Below, one piece after another: positions 56,743 through 63,720 of a stretch of 64,000 nt of DNA. The notes under the pieces are model-generated. The model had not been told where the DNA came from and did not search any database. It saw only the letters and a list, made by a program, of their open reading frames with translations. Numbering within the stretch: position 1 is the stretch's first letter; each line of letters opens with the position of its first letter. This DNA is from Nitrobacter sp. NHB1 (GTDB lineage Bacteria > Pseudomonadota > Alphaproteobacteria > Rhizobiales > Xanthobacteraceae): the NCBI RefSeq assembly GCF_036964665.1, contig NZ_JBAMDA010000001.1, positions 2,270,001 to 2,334,000 on the forward strand, given 5' to 3'. Made by a program: the position numbers and the translations under genes.

Positions 56743-57252
56743 CTATCGGTCGTCATAGCGACGCTGTGCAACTGCGAGCGCACGGGCTTCGGCGCGAATG
56801 CGGATAATGAGCACCAGCGCATTCAGGATAGTGAAGACCAACGCCAGTAGATACAGATGAAGCGCGAGCGGCAAAACCGCGATCTCCGCGGCAACGATCG
56901 CATAGTTGGGATGCGACAAATATCCGTAAGGCCCCGCCGTGACCATCGGCGCGTCGGGCAATACAATAATACGCGTGGTCCATCGTGGTCCAAGCGTTGT
57001 CAGCACCCACAAGCGCAGGATCTGCAACAAAATAAAAATTGAAAGAACAATGAGATTTACGTCCCGATCGCGACCCCATGCCCATAACGCAATTAGCCAG
57101 GCCGCATGGGTCGCGACAACCAGCGGATAATGGCCCGGCGCGATCTCGATTGCGCCCTGCGCCAACAGCCTGCCGGTGTTGTATCGGGACAGAACGAGTT
57201 CGCCTAGCCGCTGTAGCGTCACCAACGCGAGAATGAGAGTGGCGAGAGTCAC
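56743..57252 (-). CDS. Isoprenylcysteine carboxyl methyltransferase-like membrane protein
   Basis: 169 residues starting at GTG inside the stop codon of the polyketide synthase gene (GTGA overlap). Five or so membrane helices; the ICMT/PEMT-type SAM motif is PYGYLSHPNYAIVAAEIAVL, with RIRAEARAL near the C-terminus. Proteins of this type beside type III polyketide synthases (e.g. BpsB-like partners) O-methylate the alkylpyrone or alkylresorcinol product. That is the most likely role here; prenyl-protein methylation is not expected in this context. Confidence 0.86.
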   Translation of the reverse strand: MTLATLILALVTLQRLGELVLSRYNTGRLLAQGAIEIAPGHYPLVVATHAAWLIALWAWGRDRDVNLIVLSIFILLQILRLWVLTTLGPRWTTRIIVLPDAPMVTAGPYGYLSHPNYAIVAAEIAVLPLALHLYLLALVFTILNALVLIIRIRAEARALAVAQRRYDDR

Positions 57253-58301
57253 GCTGTGTGACGCAGAGTGACGCAGCTTGCGGTGAACCCCGGCCCGAGT
57301 GAGGTCACCAGTGCCCGCGGGGGCAGGCCCTGCGCGCGAGCGCGTTCGAGCACAAACAGGACCGTCGCCGCCGACATATTCCCGTAATCGGCAATTACCC
57401 CTCTTTCGTTGTTGAGCGTCCCCTGGTCGAGCGAAAAAGCCCGCTCGATCGCGATAATGACTTTCGTACCGCCGGGATGGCAAATGAAGCAATCGATATC
57501 TCCGATCGAAAGACCCATCCCGGACAGAATTGCCGTGACACCTGGCTTCATGTGCGCAACCACGAAGTCAGGAATGGTGCGCTGGAAGATCACGCCAAAT
57601 CCTTCGGGGTCTACACGCCATCCCATGATATTCAGCGTGTTAGGCCACAGATATTCGCCGGTTGCCTCGATGCGTGTCGCACCTCCATCTCCGGCGCGCA
57701 GCAGGACGGCGGCGGCCCCGTCGCCGAACAGACTGGCGGCAACGATATTGGCCTTGGTCAATTCGTCATGGCGGACTGCGAGCGTACAAAGTTCAAGGAC
57801 CACCAGCAGCACGTTCGTGCCAGGCCGTGCTTGCGCCAGCCGCGATGCAATGGATAGTCCAGTTACGCCGCCCGCGCAGCCCAGACCAAAGACTGGCACG
57901 CGCGACACATCCGGCCGGAAGCCGAGTTTCGCCGCGACGCGGGCCTCCAGCGTCGGTGTCGCGATGCCGGTCGAACACACCGTCACGACGGTGTCGATAT
58001 TAGTCACGCTGAGATCGGCGCGTTCGATAGCCTTGCGCGCGACATCGACGAACAAGGCTTCGGCGCCTTCCAGAAAGGCTTGAGTTCGCTCCGGCCAGCC
58101 ACGCGGCTCGCAGTACCATTCAATCGGTTTAACGCCGTAACGGTGCTGTATGCCGGTGTTAGCGAAAAGAGAGGAGAGCGTTTCAAACTGCGGATACCGC
58201 GAACCCAAGATGAAACGCGCCGCTTGGAGAATTTGCGTCTGATGAAACACATGCGGTGGAACTCCGGTCGCCATCGAGATCAAAGCGGCCGTTTGCTTCA
58301 T
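57249..58301 (-). CDS. Type III polyketide synthase
   Basis: 350 residues from MKQTAALISMATGVPPH, with an AGGAG Shine-Dalgarno. Chalcone synthase-like ketosynthase with the Cys-His-Asn triad: C142 (FGLGCAGGVTGL), H275 (CFICHPGGTKV) and N308 (DYGNMSAATV). It condenses malonyl-CoA units onto an acyl starter, typically to alkylpyrones or alkylresorcinols in bacteria. It overlaps the methyltransferase gene by 4 bp, so both products are made together. The chain-length specificity cannot be predicted by eye. Probably continues a minus-strand set that includes the two upstream stress genes. Confidence 0.93.
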   Translation of the reverse strand: MKQTAALISMATGVPPHVFHQTQILQAARFILGSRYPQFETLSSLFANTGIQHRYGVKPIEWYCEPRGWPERTQAFLEGAEALFVDVARKAIERADLSVTNIDTVVTVCSTGIATPTLEARVAAKLGFRPDVSRVPVFGLGCAGGVTGLSIASRLAQARPGTNVLLVVLELCTLAVRHDELTKANIVAASLFGDGAAAVLLRAGDGGATRIEATGEYLWPNTLNIMGWRVDPEGFGVIFQRTIPDFVVAHMKPGVTAILSGMGLSIGDIDCFICHPGGTKVIIAIERAFSLDQGTLNNERGVIADYGNMSAATVLFVLERARAQGLPPRALVTSLGPGFTASCVTLRHTA

Positions 58302-58427
58302 ATCGTTGCTCCTGCCCCAGGTGGCACTCGTATCGAAAACCGCGCCGCTGACGCAATCGGCCACGCGGCCGGAGGAATACTGCGGCGCCGATGCCGAGCC
58401 GATCGAAACCGCCGGACAACAGCACCC

Positions 58428-59064: not shown

Positions 59065-59307
59065 TCAGCGAGATTTCTTCTTCGGAACCTTTTCGCCCTT
59101 CTTGCGCGCCTTGGAGAGGCCGATCGCGATGGCCTGTTTTCTGCTTTTGACCTTGCCGCCCTTGCCGCCGCGCCCGCTTTTTGCCGTGCCTTTTTTGTAA
59201 CGGCGCATTTCCTTTTCTACCGTGCGACCCGAACTCTTCGAATAACGGCGCTTCTTTGCCTTCTTCTTTGCCGCCTTCTTCGCCTTCTTCGCCTTCTTCG
59301 CGGCCAT
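59065..59307 (-). CDS. DUF6496 lysine-rich small protein
   Basis: 80 residues, about 40% Lys/Arg. The N-terminal third is KKA-type repeats (AAKKAKKAKKAAKKKAKKRR), resembling histone H1 tails. The C-terminal part (EKEMRRYKKGTAKSGRGGK then SRKQAIAIGLSKARKKGEKV) is the DUF6496 motif found in small stress-associated alphaproteobacterial proteins. DNA or RNA binding is a reasonable guess but unproven. A one-mismatch EcfG-type motif lies 64 bp upstream. Confidence 0.83.
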   Translation of the reverse strand: MAAKKAKKAKKAAKKKAKKRRYSKSSGRTVEKEMRRYKKGTAKSGRGGKGGKVKSRKQAIAIGLSKARKKGEKVPKKKSR

Positions 59308-59370
59308 GAACTTTTTCCTCCGTAAGGTGGACGGGACTTGAGCGGCTCGGTTAAATATCGGTTGCGGACG

Positions 59371-59395: not shown

Positions 59396-59568
59396 AGAAG
59401 AGTGCGCCCAAGCCACCTACGCCGGTTCGACCTGCTGGAACGTTTTGGTCCTGCTCATGGCAAAATTTCAGGTTGGAAGCGGTTCGCGATAATCGCCGGC
59501 AAGCGAGGGAACTCCTGTATATCAAAAGGCCCGACGCGCGCGCCGGGTCTTTCTCGAAGAACTCTGCC

Positions 59569-59961: not shown

Positions 59962-59986
59962 AACGCGCCCGCAAGAAAAGTGTTCC
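59962..59986 (-). promoter_or_regulatory. EcfG-type promoter for the PRC-barrel gene
   Basis: Minus strand: GGAAC (59982-59986), 16 nt, CGTT (59962-59965). Exact match to the general stress response consensus, 36 bp before the start codon. Confidence 0.75.
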
Positions 59987-60419
59987 GAAAGTCAAAGGAC
60001 GGTCTGCAACCAGCATCGCTGGCCGCGTCAGCGGCGAGAGCTGCTACCGGCAATTCGCTACGCAGAACAATCCATCCATGATTTTTCCAAACAAACTTTT
60101 AGGAGAAGGGTCAATCTTCTCAAAAGCGAAAAACACTTATTCTGCGACCTCGGTTTCACGGAGCTGCTCGATGCGCCCGTCGTAGAACTTGAATCTGATT
60201 TTCTGTTGTTCCTTGCTTCAAAGCGCCGACATCCCGTGCGACTGGTACGGCACTCGTCCATGGCCCGACTAAATAGGAAACCTATCGCAAGGTCATCGTC
60301 GATCGGTCATCGTCGATCGCGACTGCAACTAAGAGCGATCAAGCTTTCCGCCAGACCAATCCGCCCAATACATCGGGCGGGTTGTCGTTGATTAGGGCAA
60401 ATCGACATCTGAAGTCGGA
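59987..60419. other. Non-coding spacer with small repeats
   Basis: No convincing gene. Short minus-strand reading (KIRFKFYDGRIEQLRETEVA, about 60139-60200) looks protein-like but has no start. Also a 14-bp tandem duplication at 60291 and a small hairpin (CCGCCC/GGGCGG, near 60361-60380). Confidence 0.45.
60291..60318. repeat. 14-bp perfect tandem duplication
   Basis: GGTCATCGTCGATC occurs twice in direct succession. Confidence 0.9.
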
Positions 60420-60444
60420 GGAACTGGATATTCCCTTCTGCGTT
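60420..60444 (+). promoter_or_regulatory. EcfG-type promoter for the 26-residue peptide gene
   Basis: GGAAC (60420-60424), 16 nt, CGTT (60441-60444): exact match to the EcfG consensus, 31 bp upstream of the start codon. Confidence 0.72.
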
Positions 60445-60475
60445 CAACTCACTTGAGGTTTTAATGGAGGCGACG

Positions 60476-60556
60476 ATGGGACGAGGACTTTTGCTCTGGC
60501 TGCTTGGAGTGCCTATTCCGGTAATCATTCTGTTGTGGCTGTTCTTCGGCCACTGA
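60476..60556 (+). CDS. 26-residue hydrophobic membrane peptide
   Basis: Very small gene: MGRGLLLWLLGVPIPVIILL then WLFFGH and stop. A GGAGG Shine-Dalgarno lies five bases before the ATG; another in-frame ATG four codons upstream is less well placed. The peptide is a single membrane helix with a Pro-Ile-Pro kink, like other small stress-induced membrane peptides. An exact EcfG-type promoter just upstream supports its reality. I recall near-identical short hypothetical proteins in related genomes, but cannot check. Function unknown. Confidence 0.75.
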   Translation: MGRGLLLWLLGVPIPVIILLWLFFGH

Positions 60557-60969
60557 TAGGCTGATGGCCCGTTGAGGTTAGCTGCTTACGCAAATGGGCT
60601 GGACTTCCGGCGATAATAACTTCCGACATGGGCGTACATGCGTTTCGCCGACGTGGCTCGCGATGGCCGATGGCGCGTCAGAACAATCGCTCGAACGAGA
60701 CGAACGCCGCAGCCCAAGTCCTAGGGTAAACAGCAAGGAGGCTCGCGCCGGCGATCAAAAGCCGGGACTTTAACCGAGTGCGGTTTTGAGTTTCCGTTCG
60801 ACCTCGTTCGTCATCGCCTTCCAACGGTTGAGTTTTCACTGGTTCCGAGATCGGCATCGGTGGATGCCGGGTCGTAGCGTTGCCGAGCCTGTTCCTCAGG
60901 CACCATATGCCGAAAACACCTCAATCGCTGGTCCGATCGGCCGCCCGACGAGCCCTCCTATCGGTCGCC
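60557..60969. other. Non-coding spacer
   Basis: 413 bp downstream of the small peptide and of the iron permease homologue. A short minus-strand frame (MVPEEQARQRYDPASTDADL and a few more codons, about 60814-60909) is possible but unrecognised. No terminator hairpin stands out. Confidence 0.4.
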
Positions 60970-61392
60970 TCAACCCCGGCTTTGCCTGCCTTTTCCCGCT
61001 TCGGCTCGCCGCTCACACTTGACGCGAATCTCTTCGATTTCTTCGTCGGTGAGATGCTCAATTCCTACAAAGGAATTTTGGGCCGTGCTGACCCTGATCA
61101 GTTCGTCGAGCTTGACTTGAATAGCGGCGCTGTCACGGTTCTGAGAGTTTTGGATGAGGAATACCATCAGGAAGGTCACGATAGTGGTGCCCGTATTGAT
61201 GATGAGTTGCCACGTATCGGAGTAGTGAAAGACGGGACCGCTGATACCCCAGACGATCACGACGCCGACCGCGATGGTGAACGTCAGACCACGACCGGCG
61301 GCCTGCGACGTGCGGTTTGCGATTTCTCCGAACAGCTTGGAAAAGCGGCTGCCATTAGGTTCGGCCACACGCGCATTCACTTGTTTCAACAC
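60970..61392 (-). CDS. Low-affinity iron permease-like membrane protein
   Basis: 140 residues from a GTG nine bases after GGAGG (VLKQVNARVAEPNG); an earlier GTG at 61443 would add 17 codons. Pfam family 'low affinity iron permease': FSKLFGEIANRTSQAAGRGL, two helices (FTIAVGVVIVWGISGPVF and IINTGTTIVTFLMVFLIQ) and the marked NSQNRDSAAIQVKLDELIR. Bacterial members are half the size of yeast Fet4 and their transport role is unproven. An EcfG-type promoter lies 45 bp upstream. Confidence 0.86.
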   Translation of the reverse strand: MLKQVNARVAEPNGSRFSKLFGEIANRTSQAAGRGLTFTIAVGVVIVWGISGPVFHYSDTWQLIINTGTTIVTFLMVFLIQNSQNRDSAAIQVKLDELIRVSTAQNSFVGIEHLTDEEIEEIRVKCERRAEAGKGRQSRG

Positions 61393-61436
61393 GGGTGGTT
61401 TCCTCCGCAGGCCTCCAAGGTTTGCCGCGGCCAATG

Positions 61437-61462
61437 AACGCACACGATCGGAAGAAAGTTCC
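61437..61462 (-). promoter_or_regulatory. EcfG-type promoter for the iron permease-like gene
   Basis: Minus strand: GGAAC (61458-61462), 17 nt, CGTT (61437-61440). Exact boxes; the -10 end is 45 bp from the chosen GTG and just upstream of it. The site also argues against the more distal GTG at 61443, which overlaps the motif. Confidence 0.7.
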
Positions 61463-61661
61463 CCAGGGTTTGCGGGTCCTTCTGGCGAAGGGTCTAGTCC
61501 GTGGATGCGGCTCTCTACGGCGGCGTATTGGCAGGAATCTCGTCGCGTAACCTATAGGGGAAGCCAGAACGTATTATCCCTGTAGACAACGCCACGCGTC
61601 TCATCGGCGTCGATGCGCTCGATGCCGCTCGACGCACGATTCGGCTTCTCGGTTCCGACAC
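61463..61661. other. Non-coding promoter spacer between divergent stress genes
   Basis: About 200 bp between two divergent EcfG-type promoters. Nothing else recognised. Confidence 0.4.
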
Positions 61662-61686
61662 GGAACGATCGCCCCGCGCGCTCGTT
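61662..61686 (+). promoter_or_regulatory. EcfG-type promoter for the exported PRC-barrel gene
   Basis: GGAAC (61662-61666), 16 nt, CGTT (61683-61686), 30 bp before the start codon. Confidence 0.75.
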
Positions 61687-61716
61687 GGAAGGTGACCATC
61701 AACGAAGGAGACTACA

Positions 61717-62139
61717 ATGCGATTGATCCCGGCAGTGCTTCTGGCGTGCGCCCTCGCCTCGCCCATGGCGATGGCCCAAAACCTTGCACCGACCCCGTCA
61801 GCTGCTGCGGCGCCTGTCTCGGCCGCCGGTCAGTGGAGAGCTTCCAAGCTAGTGGGCGTGAATATATACAATGAGCAGAATGACAAGATCGGCGAAGTGA
61901 ATGATGTGATCATCGACGGCTCTGGCAAAGTTGACGGCGTCATTGTCAGCGTCGGCGGCTTTCTCGGCATGGGCGAACATAACGTTATGATGAAGCTGGA
62001 TCAGATCAAGTTCGCCAACAAGGCCGGAACCACGACAACCGGTTCAACGAGTTCGAATTCGAAGCAGTGGTATCCTGACCGTGGCACGGTCAACGCCACG
62101 AAGGACCAGCTCAAGGCAATGCCACAGTTCAAGTACTAG
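61717..62139 (+). CDS. Exported PRC-barrel domain protein
   Basis: 140 residues with AAGGAG Shine-Dalgarno. Signal peptide (IPAVLLACALASPMAMAQ), then a Pro/Ala linker and a PRC-barrel domain: SKLVGVNIYNEQNDKIGEVN, DVIIDGSGKVDGVIVSVGGF, LGMGEHNVMMKLDQIKF. The C-terminus (YPDRGTVNATKDQLKAMPQF) is typical of these alphaproteobacterial proteins. Periplasmic; function unknown. It differs from the cytosolic PRC-barrel at 59.6 kb in having a signal peptide. Confidence 0.89.
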   Translation: MRLIPAVLLACALASPMAMAQNLAPTPSAAAAPVSAAGQWRASKLVGVNIYNEQNDKIGEVNDVIIDGSGKVDGVIVSVGGFLGMGEHNVMMKLDQIKFANKAGTTTTGSTSSNSKQWYPDRGTVNATKDQLKAMPQFKY

Positions 62140-62318
62140 GCATTAAGCCGGCAAACGCTCGACCTTAGGAACGCGTCGTCCTTAAGCGCGTTTCTGGGGT
62201 CTGTTATGCACCTGCCGTCACCGGGAGGCCGCCGTAGTGGGGGCAATTTTGAACTTCGGCGGGCTCTTGCACCAGCCTGATGATCTCCGTCACATTGGCC
62301 TTCATGAAGGACATTATC

Positions 62319-63272
62319 CTAAAACCCCGACATCTGGCGCTGCTTCTGGCGAGCTTCGAACATGCGTCTGGTCTGGGGTTTCACGAAGAGCGAGACGATC
62401 TGAGGATGCTTTTCGCGGATCCGTCGCTCGAGCTCCGTGACGCATTCTTCGATCTGTGGTGTGTGGAGAGCGTCCGCAAATTCCAGACTAAGGGTCGCCA
62501 CAATCTGATCTGGCGATAGATGGACGGTAATCACGCCATTAGCGCCTTCAACCCCTGGCTGACTTTCAGCGAGCGAAAGGACCGAACTGTTGATCGCTTC
62601 GCTGGCGCGCTCGCCAATCAACAGACCCTTGCTCTCCCTTGCAAGAAGGGCGGCTATGACCGCCAGAACTGTGCCAATAAGAATCGATGCGGCGCCGTCA
62701 ATTGCAGGTATCCCAAAATGATCGGCCGCCCAAATCCCGGCTGCCGCGATCACGATGCCGATCAGGGCGGCGGTGTCTTCGAGAAGGACCATGAACGAGG
62801 GCGGATCCTTGCTCATCGTAATGGCTTCTAGGTAAGGCTTCGATCCCTTGGAAGCGCGAAAAGATTTCAGCGCGATCCACCACGACACCCCCTCGAACAG
62901 AAACGAACAAGCCAGGACAATGTAATTGACCGACACATTTTCGATCCGGGTGGGCGCGGCAACATGCAGGATACCCTCGTAAAACGAGACGCCGGCGCCA
63001 AGCGCAAACAGCAAGAGTGCAACAATGAAACTCCAAAAATACAGTTCGCGCCCATAACCCAGCGGATGGTGCGCATCGGGCCGGAGGCTGGCACGTGAAT
63101 ATCCATAAAGAAGCAGCGCCTCATTACCCGTATCCACCAACGAATGGACGCCCTCGCTGATCATCGACGAACTTCCAGTGATGAGCGCAGCGATGAATTT
63201 GGTCACGGCAACTAACAGGTTTCCCGCCAATGCCGCATAGATCACCTTTTTTGATGGGTTGTTCGTGGCCAT
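62319..63272 (-). CDS. Cation diffusion facilitator (metal exporter)
   Basis: 317 residues. CDF family: helices carry the metal site SMISEGVHSLVDTGNEALL (helix 2) and LLEDTAALIGIVIAA (helix 5), plus the DAHHPLGYGRELYFWSF signature. About six membrane helices, then a short cytosolic beta-alpha-beta domain (VITVHLSPDQIVATLSLEFA). It exports Zn2+, Fe2+, Mn2+ or similar by proton antiport; there is no long His loop to indicate zinc. Monocistronic, on the opposite strand to the exported PRC-barrel gene. No EcfG box was seen upstream. Confidence 0.93.
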   Translation of the reverse strand: MATNNPSKKVIYAALAGNLLVAVTKFIAALITGSSSMISEGVHSLVDTGNEALLLYGYSRASLRPDAHHPLGYGRELYFWSFIVALLLFALGAGVSFYEGILHVAAPTRIENVSVNYIVLACSFLFEGVSWWIALKSFRASKGSKPYLEAITMSKDPPSFMVLLEDTAALIGIVIAAAGIWAADHFGIPAIDGAASILIGTVLAVIAALLARESKGLLIGERASEAINSSVLSLAESQPGVEGANGVITVHLSPDQIVATLSLEFADALHTPQIEECVTELERRIREKHPQIVSLFVKPQTRRMFEARQKQRQMSGF

Positions 63273-63720
63273 GCCCGGAGATCGAATTCCTGAAATCGAC
63301 AGGCCGCCGACCGGCCGCGGGAAACAGTGCTATAAGGCTCGTCGCGATGAAATACGCTCCGCGGCGAATGAACGCCGTCCGGTCGGTGAAGTTCCTTGAT
63401 GCTTATATTGCACCCGGTTGCAGAGCATCTTCTTGAAAATGACATGGACCTTTTTCGGTTTAGATGCAGACCTACTTGAAGATATTCGCGGACTTGCAAA
63501 GCTAGTTGGCAGGTCCGTCGCTAACGTTACGCTGCTTTCCAACGACCATCGTTTCGATTTTCAGAATATTGGAAAGCGCCGGGGGTGTCCGATCACTGTT
63601 GCCGCTCAAACAGCCCCTCAAAAAGGCAAATTGCGCCATCCAAAAGCAAAGACTGTACTGTGATGCTTGAACCGCAGCTGAGGTACGCGACGCCAAGCTC
63701 AAGGCCGGCCTCAGCTGTCC
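63273..63720. other. Non-coding spacer before the transposase remnant
   Basis: About 450 bp. A 75-codon frame (from 63436, MTWTFFGLDADLLEDI) is open but unrecognised and has no clear Shine-Dalgarno. The region seems decayed. Confidence 0.4.

Follow-up and report, generated by a model that had tools for sequence, protein, structure and literature searches.

Background

Accounts of bacterial end joining, PMC12784961 for one, present it as the work of two proteins, Ku and LigD, and a comparative study of bacterial NHEJ looked at ku-ligD proximity, with no third gene mentioned in the sections used (PMC7719229). Nothing on DUF6496 was found in the consulted portions of the literature on bacterial Ku/LigD gene neighbourhoods, and a search of the open literature returned no paper naming DUF6496, DUF6321, PF20106, PHROG 2423 or the motif strings of the protein. 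In the histone H1-like proteins of bacteria, those of the HctB type included, a lysine/alanine-rich repeat makes up the conserved bulk of the protein. Here we compare with these systems a small, basic DUF6496 protein encoded in the window, that is, the whole 64,000-nucleotide stretch of Nitrobacter sp. NHB1 DNA that was analysed.

A conserved and highly basic DUF6496 protein

The minus strand of the window carries a gene for an 80-residue protein (59065..59307) with an ATG start and a predicted pI of ~11.8. The first-pass annotation had given exactly these coordinates, without a strand, and had assigned the product to DUF6496, and the assignment holds: the protein matches the Pfam family PF20106 over the full profile (positions 1-58 of 58) with a score of 104.9 bits for a cut-off of 24. 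The Pfam entry itself is a 'family of unknown function'. The extreme basicity of the protein is borne out as well, with 36 K/R vs 3 D/E among its 80 residues. A ribosome-binding-like GGAGG (59317..59321, minus strand) lies 9 bases 5' of the ATG and is kept in N. hamburgensis. Set against its counterpart on plasmid 1 of N. hamburgensis X14, the gene shows 9 synonymous and 5 non-synonymous codon differences (dN 0.027, dS 0.193, dN/dS ~0.14), four of the five non-synonymous changes falling within the first 18 residues; purifying selection acts on this gene. The host genome (4 contigs, 3.79 Mb) contains a single DUF6496 match, on the minus strand, in a genome-wide profile search. A profile search independent of VKSRKQAI seeds finds the family in 73 of 149 genomes of the same family as the host, including four of the seven from the same genus. 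These data confirm that the window protein is real and conserved beyond chance. On the plus strand, an antisense frame is open across all of 59065-59307 and could mislead annotation.

The protein has two parts, a KKA-rich N-terminal tail (residues 1-20; 59248..59307, minus strand) and the conserved DUF6496 domain (residues 21-78; 59074..59247, minus strand). The KKA repeats noted earlier are thus present in the tail; the conserved sequence that had been taken for the end of the protein is the SRKQAIAIGLSKARKKG motif, which occupies residues 55-71 in the C-terminal half. An AlphaFold2 model built from 30 aligned sequences (mean pLDDT 86, pTM 0.63) predicts a first helix at residues 24-39 (59191..59238, minus strand), a short hairpin and a second helix at residues 56-69 (59101..59142, minus strand), the last of these, RKQAIAIGLSKARK, being placed by both model and alignment. 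The model also draws the tail as a helix (residues 2-19). Residues invariant in 32 aligned bacterial and viral homologues include, in window numbering, G40, V53, S55, R56, K57, Q58, A59, I60, A61, I62 and S65, and VKSRKQAIAI is near-invariant in alignments collected partly through that motif. The invariance of the core is inflated because two homologue scans were seeded partly on VKSRKQAI and the viral set there was filtered on the motif.

The KKA tail is variable or missing among relatives, many of which have a K/R/S/T-rich C-terminal tail instead. Nitrobacter proteins have the N-terminal KKA form, Bradyrhizobium proteins a C-terminal K/S/T/R form, and most phage members a short tail. A description of the protein as histone-tail-like therefore suits the first 20, variable residues and fails for residues 21-78, which are predicted to fold as a domain of their own made of a helix, a short hairpin and a helix. 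Whereas the repeat is the conserved bulk of an H1-like protein, here it is confined to residues 1-20 and the conservation lies in residues 21-78. A relative of ~170 aa (L204-L210, L214-L216, L218) has SAAAKKAARTR repeats, resembling histone H1, after its GKHGARSTKQAIAIGLSEARRAGV-like core, and occurs in genomes of the window's family, of its order and of other classes of the phylum.

A Foldseek search of the PDB with the predicted structure returned two matches only (E 8.8 and 9.4, probability <=0.03), with no solved DNA-binding fold matched, and phmmer returned no match of the window protein to PDB sequences. The SAP domain of Ku70, a eukaryotic domain, had been considered as a candidate fold and was dropped, since the fold search found no similarity to any solved structure.

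Genomic setting and stress island

Upstream of the DUF6496 gene lies a gene for a PRC-barrel protein (PF05239; 59569..59925, minus strand), itself preceded by an EcfG-type promoter-like motif (59962..59986, minus strand). A terminator-like hairpin (59530..59547, minus strand) between the two genes suggests that DUF6496 is transcribed separately; the hairpin is a consensus match only, of a kind found 11 times vs 7.0 in shuffles. Downstream are genes for a pyridoxamine-phosphate-oxidase-like (PNPOx-like) protein (PF16242; 58428..59051, minus strand; longest ORF, the true start probably further in), which we take to be of the general stress protein 26 type, and for a type III polyketide synthase (PF00195/PF02797; 57249..58364, minus strand; longest ORF). 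On plasmid 1 of N. hamburgensis X14 the homologue is followed by the same set of genes (PNPOx-like, type III polyketide synthase and ICMT-family), and this plasmid matches a 6.8 kb query at 92.3% DNA identity across 50% of the query. The synthase and the ICMT-family methyltransferase (together 56743-58364) are also paired on Phyllobacterium zundukense and N. hamburgensis plasmids, and two Sphingomonas plasmids have an ICMT-family gene beside a synthase annotated as 3-oxoacyl-ACP synthase III-like.

The window contains 11 exact EcfG-type motifs (GGAAC-N15-18-CGTT) vs 2.6 expected, a number reached in none of 100 shuffles. Seven of them fall within 3.4 kb (59962-63371), in front of or close to genes for PRC-barrel, iron-permease-like and cation efflux proteins; the chance estimate for this cluster is optimistic because the region was chosen after the sites were seen. 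Judged by these motifs, 59962-63371 is a compact general-stress island. The first-pass annotation had placed the DUF6496 gene in a stress cluster; this has some support, as the seven motifs adjoin the gene, though none stands upstream of DUF6496 itself, where the best site in 293 bases has 2 mismatches. Joint transcription of DUF6496 with the PRC-barrel gene from the EcfG-type motif of the latter is not favoured, given the terminator-like hairpin between the genes and the lack of a good motif before DUF6496.

Among 109 DUF6496 relatives, six (two of them identical) have an exact EcfG motif within 250 bases upstream, against a background of 1.6% of random stretches and 2/109 on the antisense strand (binomial p 0.009 for six, 0.03 for five). 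The EcfG-controlled genes tabulated for Sphingomonas melonis together with putative EcfG sites include, in the portion consulted, those for Ku, for a PRC-barrel protein and for a general stress protein 26 (PMC6599016). At three of four Bradyrhizobium loci listed, the close relatives of the window protein have an apparent Do-like protease and an apparent universal stress protein, recognised by eye, as neighbours, and not Ku.

Linkage to Ku and LigD

Within the host's family, a listed Ku lies within 5 kb of DUF6496 in at least 15 of the 73 DUF6496-positive genomes and within 2 kb in at least 14, where 0.24 pairs are expected; the 150 Ku places listed fall in 109 of the 128 Ku-positive genomes among the 149, so that 15/73 is a lower bound. 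The 15 genomes span six genera (5, 5, 2, 1, 1 and 1 genomes), and LigD is present in all 15 of the Ku-linked regions fetched, which links the family to Ku/LigD. DUF6496 is convergent on Ku in 14 of these regions, and the remaining one (G045) has Ku, LigD and DUF6496 in that order on one strand; because its order differs from that of the other 14, the linkage is not one frozen arrangement. Among the matches listed, 58 of the 73 DUF6496-positive genomes have no Ku within 5 kb of DUF6496. Five regions without a near Ku were chosen by hand, and in one of them (L236) LigD adjoins DUF6496 without Ku.

A broader comparison covered 82 loci, comprising 80 of at least 166 genome relatives and two plasmids, many of them cut by contig ends. 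An all-against-all comparison of the ORFs around these loci identifies Ku as a recurrent close neighbour of DUF6496, and tblastn finds Ku in 7/82 and LigD or a ligase-like match in 9/82, 28 of the 82, by our count, being closely related Bradyrhizobium-type copies without Ku or LigD. Pfam confirms Ku in L032 (a Legionella lytica plasmid), L080 and L083, full LigD in L080 and L105 (a Bacteroidota contig), and ligase domains in L049 (an Acidobacteria contig); L032, L074 and L077 have a ligase-like match by tblastn only. In L083, Ku lies 545 bp from a DUF6496 gene whose product is 79% identical to the window protein. This locus and the long-branched Legionella row (L032) share the 46-row tree group of the window protein (support 99/92), and Ku-linked rows occur in several places of the tree (121 distinct of 132 rows, 60 columns, 63 of 118 inner branches open).

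Some labels in public genomes call for caution. The Ku and LigD proteins of locus L102, labelled Mucilaginibacter, share 76% and 71% identity with their counterparts in L080 (Bradyrhizobium), and L102 may be a binning error. Both L102 and L038 (labelled Frankia) have a Bradyrhizobium-like DUF6496, possibly through contamination or mislabelling. Another recurrent neighbour, a YihY/BrkB-type membrane protein, is encoded ~2.2 kb or less from DUF6496 in 5/82 loci (L032, L070, L083, L095 and L106), which are labelled Legionella, Xanthobacteraceae and Bacteroidota; Pfam was run on L070 and L095.

The window copy lies far from both Ku genes of its host: at C1:2329074, it is ~178 kb from the Ku gene at C1:2150626 and ~897 kb from that at C1:3226228. 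The idea that DUF6496 is a split Ku tail was rejected, as the C-terminal 50 residues of 21 DUF6496-adjacent Ku proteins still contain 11-17 K/R, similar to the 15 and 16 K/R in the host's two unlinked Ku proteins.

Ku and DUF6496 also co-occur across genomes. In the host's family, Ku is present in 71 of 73 genomes with DUF6496 vs 57 of 76 without (Fisher p 8e-5, kinship ignored), and the two DUF6496 genomes without Ku are 81% and 58% complete. In a draw of 398 genomes from the phylum, 89 have Ku overall, with 21/22 among DUF6496 genomes vs 68/376 among the others (p 5e-14, kinship ignored); these genome draws are centred on the host's lineage, and genomes within one genus are not independent. 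Outside the window's family, Ku is found in 10 of 11 DUF6496 genomes (p 6e-7, kinship ignored). One of these 11 (G284) has the short form, seven have the ~170 aa relative, two have a third type, and the last (G463) has a match below the Pfam cut-off and without the motif. A control stress family, KGG, has Ku in 31/56 of its genomes, and beyond the family the value for DUF6496 (10/11) exceeds that for KGG (30/55; p 0.04, kinship ignored). Since KGG is enriched in Ku genomes too, the co-occurrence partly reflects lifestyle. Co-occurrence by itself was therefore rejected as proof, and gene linkage is the stronger evidence.

Viral relatives

The viral set comprises 80 loci of at least 348 relatives in IMG/VR. 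A motif-bearing ORF (median length 60 aa) is present in 78 of the 80, and by raw count 43 of these 78 lie near one or more of the head, packaging or connector gene clusters, nearly always on the same strand. Neighbours of DUF6496 in the 78 loci, named from one representative of each cluster, include portal-type (27), MuF-type (24), large terminase (20), scaffold (20), major capsid (16) and SU10 adaptor (13) proteins, as well as DUF6321 (18). DUF6321 is another small basic family, seen near DUF6496 at L133:805-1095 and at 17 other viral loci. A tblastn search of named phage records with the window protein gave no match at E 0.01; IMG/VR contained many. Among the phage proteins, that of L141 scores 49.7 bits, above the Pfam cut-off for DUF6496, and PHROG 2423 is a weak match to the window protein (E 5e-4, residues 54-77). 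Predicted viral structures match the window model with an rmsd of 1.0-1.8 for the six best; the top-ranked matches have a probability near 1, yet the best E is 0.0096 and none is below 0.001. They include phage proteins and ones labelled Mimivirus AB-566-O17 (36% identity) and Marseillevirus LCMAC103 (37% identity).

Possible function

The protein is likely to bind DNA or RNA. Because its relatives often adjoin Ku/LigD and its phage relatives often lie near head-building genes, DUF6496 is probably DNA-associated. Our tentative reading, which we hold at a little under even chances, is that it is a small DNA-associated accessory protein with a helix-short hairpin-helix core and flexible K/R-rich tails. 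The tails would bind DNA without sequence specificity, and the near-invariant core would contact a partner protein or a DNA structure. The window protein itself would be a stress-linked accessory, possibly a third end-joining factor.

A different reading would make the protein a general nucleoid-compacting factor of the H1/HctB type, whose tails condense DNA under stress while the core only dimerises, the Ku linkage then reflecting common stress regulons. The 36 K/R among 80 residues, tails that differ in length and position, the SAAAKKAARTR-like repeats of the ~170 aa relatives and the stress-type neighbours all agree with it. However, it is the domain and not the tail that is conserved, the lysine-rich ends of many phage members are short, and a bulk compaction protein needs no tight adjacency of DUF6496, Ku and LigD. 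We consider general compaction less likely than the accessory role. We give distinctly less credence to the view that bacteria have domesticated a phage head or packaging protein whose targets in virions are the packaged DNA or the portal region. The 43 of 78 viral loci with a clustered head, packaging or connector gene, mostly on the same strand, and the structural matches (rmsd 1.0-1.8 in the six best, none with E below 0.001) speak for such an origin, but the nameable bacterial neighbours are Ku/LigD, BrkB-type or stress genes, and the tree, built on 60 columns and with 63 of its 118 inner branches open, does not give the direction of transfer.

Small, very basic proteins frequently bind RNA, and on this general ground an RNA-binding or ribosome-associated stress protein might be considered; we regard it as the most improbable of these readings. 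No ribosomal or RNA-metabolism gene is found among the recurrent neighbour clusters that were named, a minority of the clusters, which makes the argument weak. Genomic context points more towards DNA ends or packaged DNA than towards general H1-like compaction or RNA.

The accessory-protein reading can be made more specific where Ku is near. Gene linkage shows that DUF6496 belongs to the Ku and LigD end-joining locus in part of the bacteria that carry it, where it would help to hold, bridge or protect broken ends. A putative role in DNA-break repair is a reasonable though not a favoured expectation for the Ku-linked lineages, and a more doubtful one for the window's own copy, which, beside the stress island, would protect DNA or help to rejoin it under stress with Ku encoded elsewhere. 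A bolder proposal, which we think rather unlikely to hold in full, is that DUF6496 is an unrecognised third component of bacterial NHEJ that bridges or protects DNA ends in trans, its viral use and the distant Nitrobacter Ku included. Under this proposal, phages and apparently giant viruses would use the domain on DNA or its end in the head, and the Nitrobacter protein encoded beside the stress island would work with the distant Ku. If true, it would be a directly testable addition to end joining, a third conserved gene at the Ku/LigD locus, and DUF6496, a domain of unknown function that occurs in several bacterial phyla and in viruses, would gain a function. The candidate third gene is found in six genera of one family as well as, at single loci, on a Legionella plasmid and in other groups, and phages share its domain.

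Comparison with known systems

The lysine/alanine-rich tail of the window protein resembles the histone H1-like bacterial proteins of the AlgP (PMC9239181) and HctB types. Unlike proteins of the AlgP/HctB type, DUF6496 consists for the most part of a conserved predicted 58-residue domain, and the tail is its variable part. The DUF6496 tails are also basic, flexible and variable in length, like the basic extended C-terminus of bacterial Ku; unlike that C-terminus, DUF6496 is a separate gene, and the adjacent Ku proteins retain basic tails of their own. PHROG 2423 and the other phage DUF6496 proteins have the domain in common with the window protein, but they are often encoded in head/packaging modules and their tails are mostly short.
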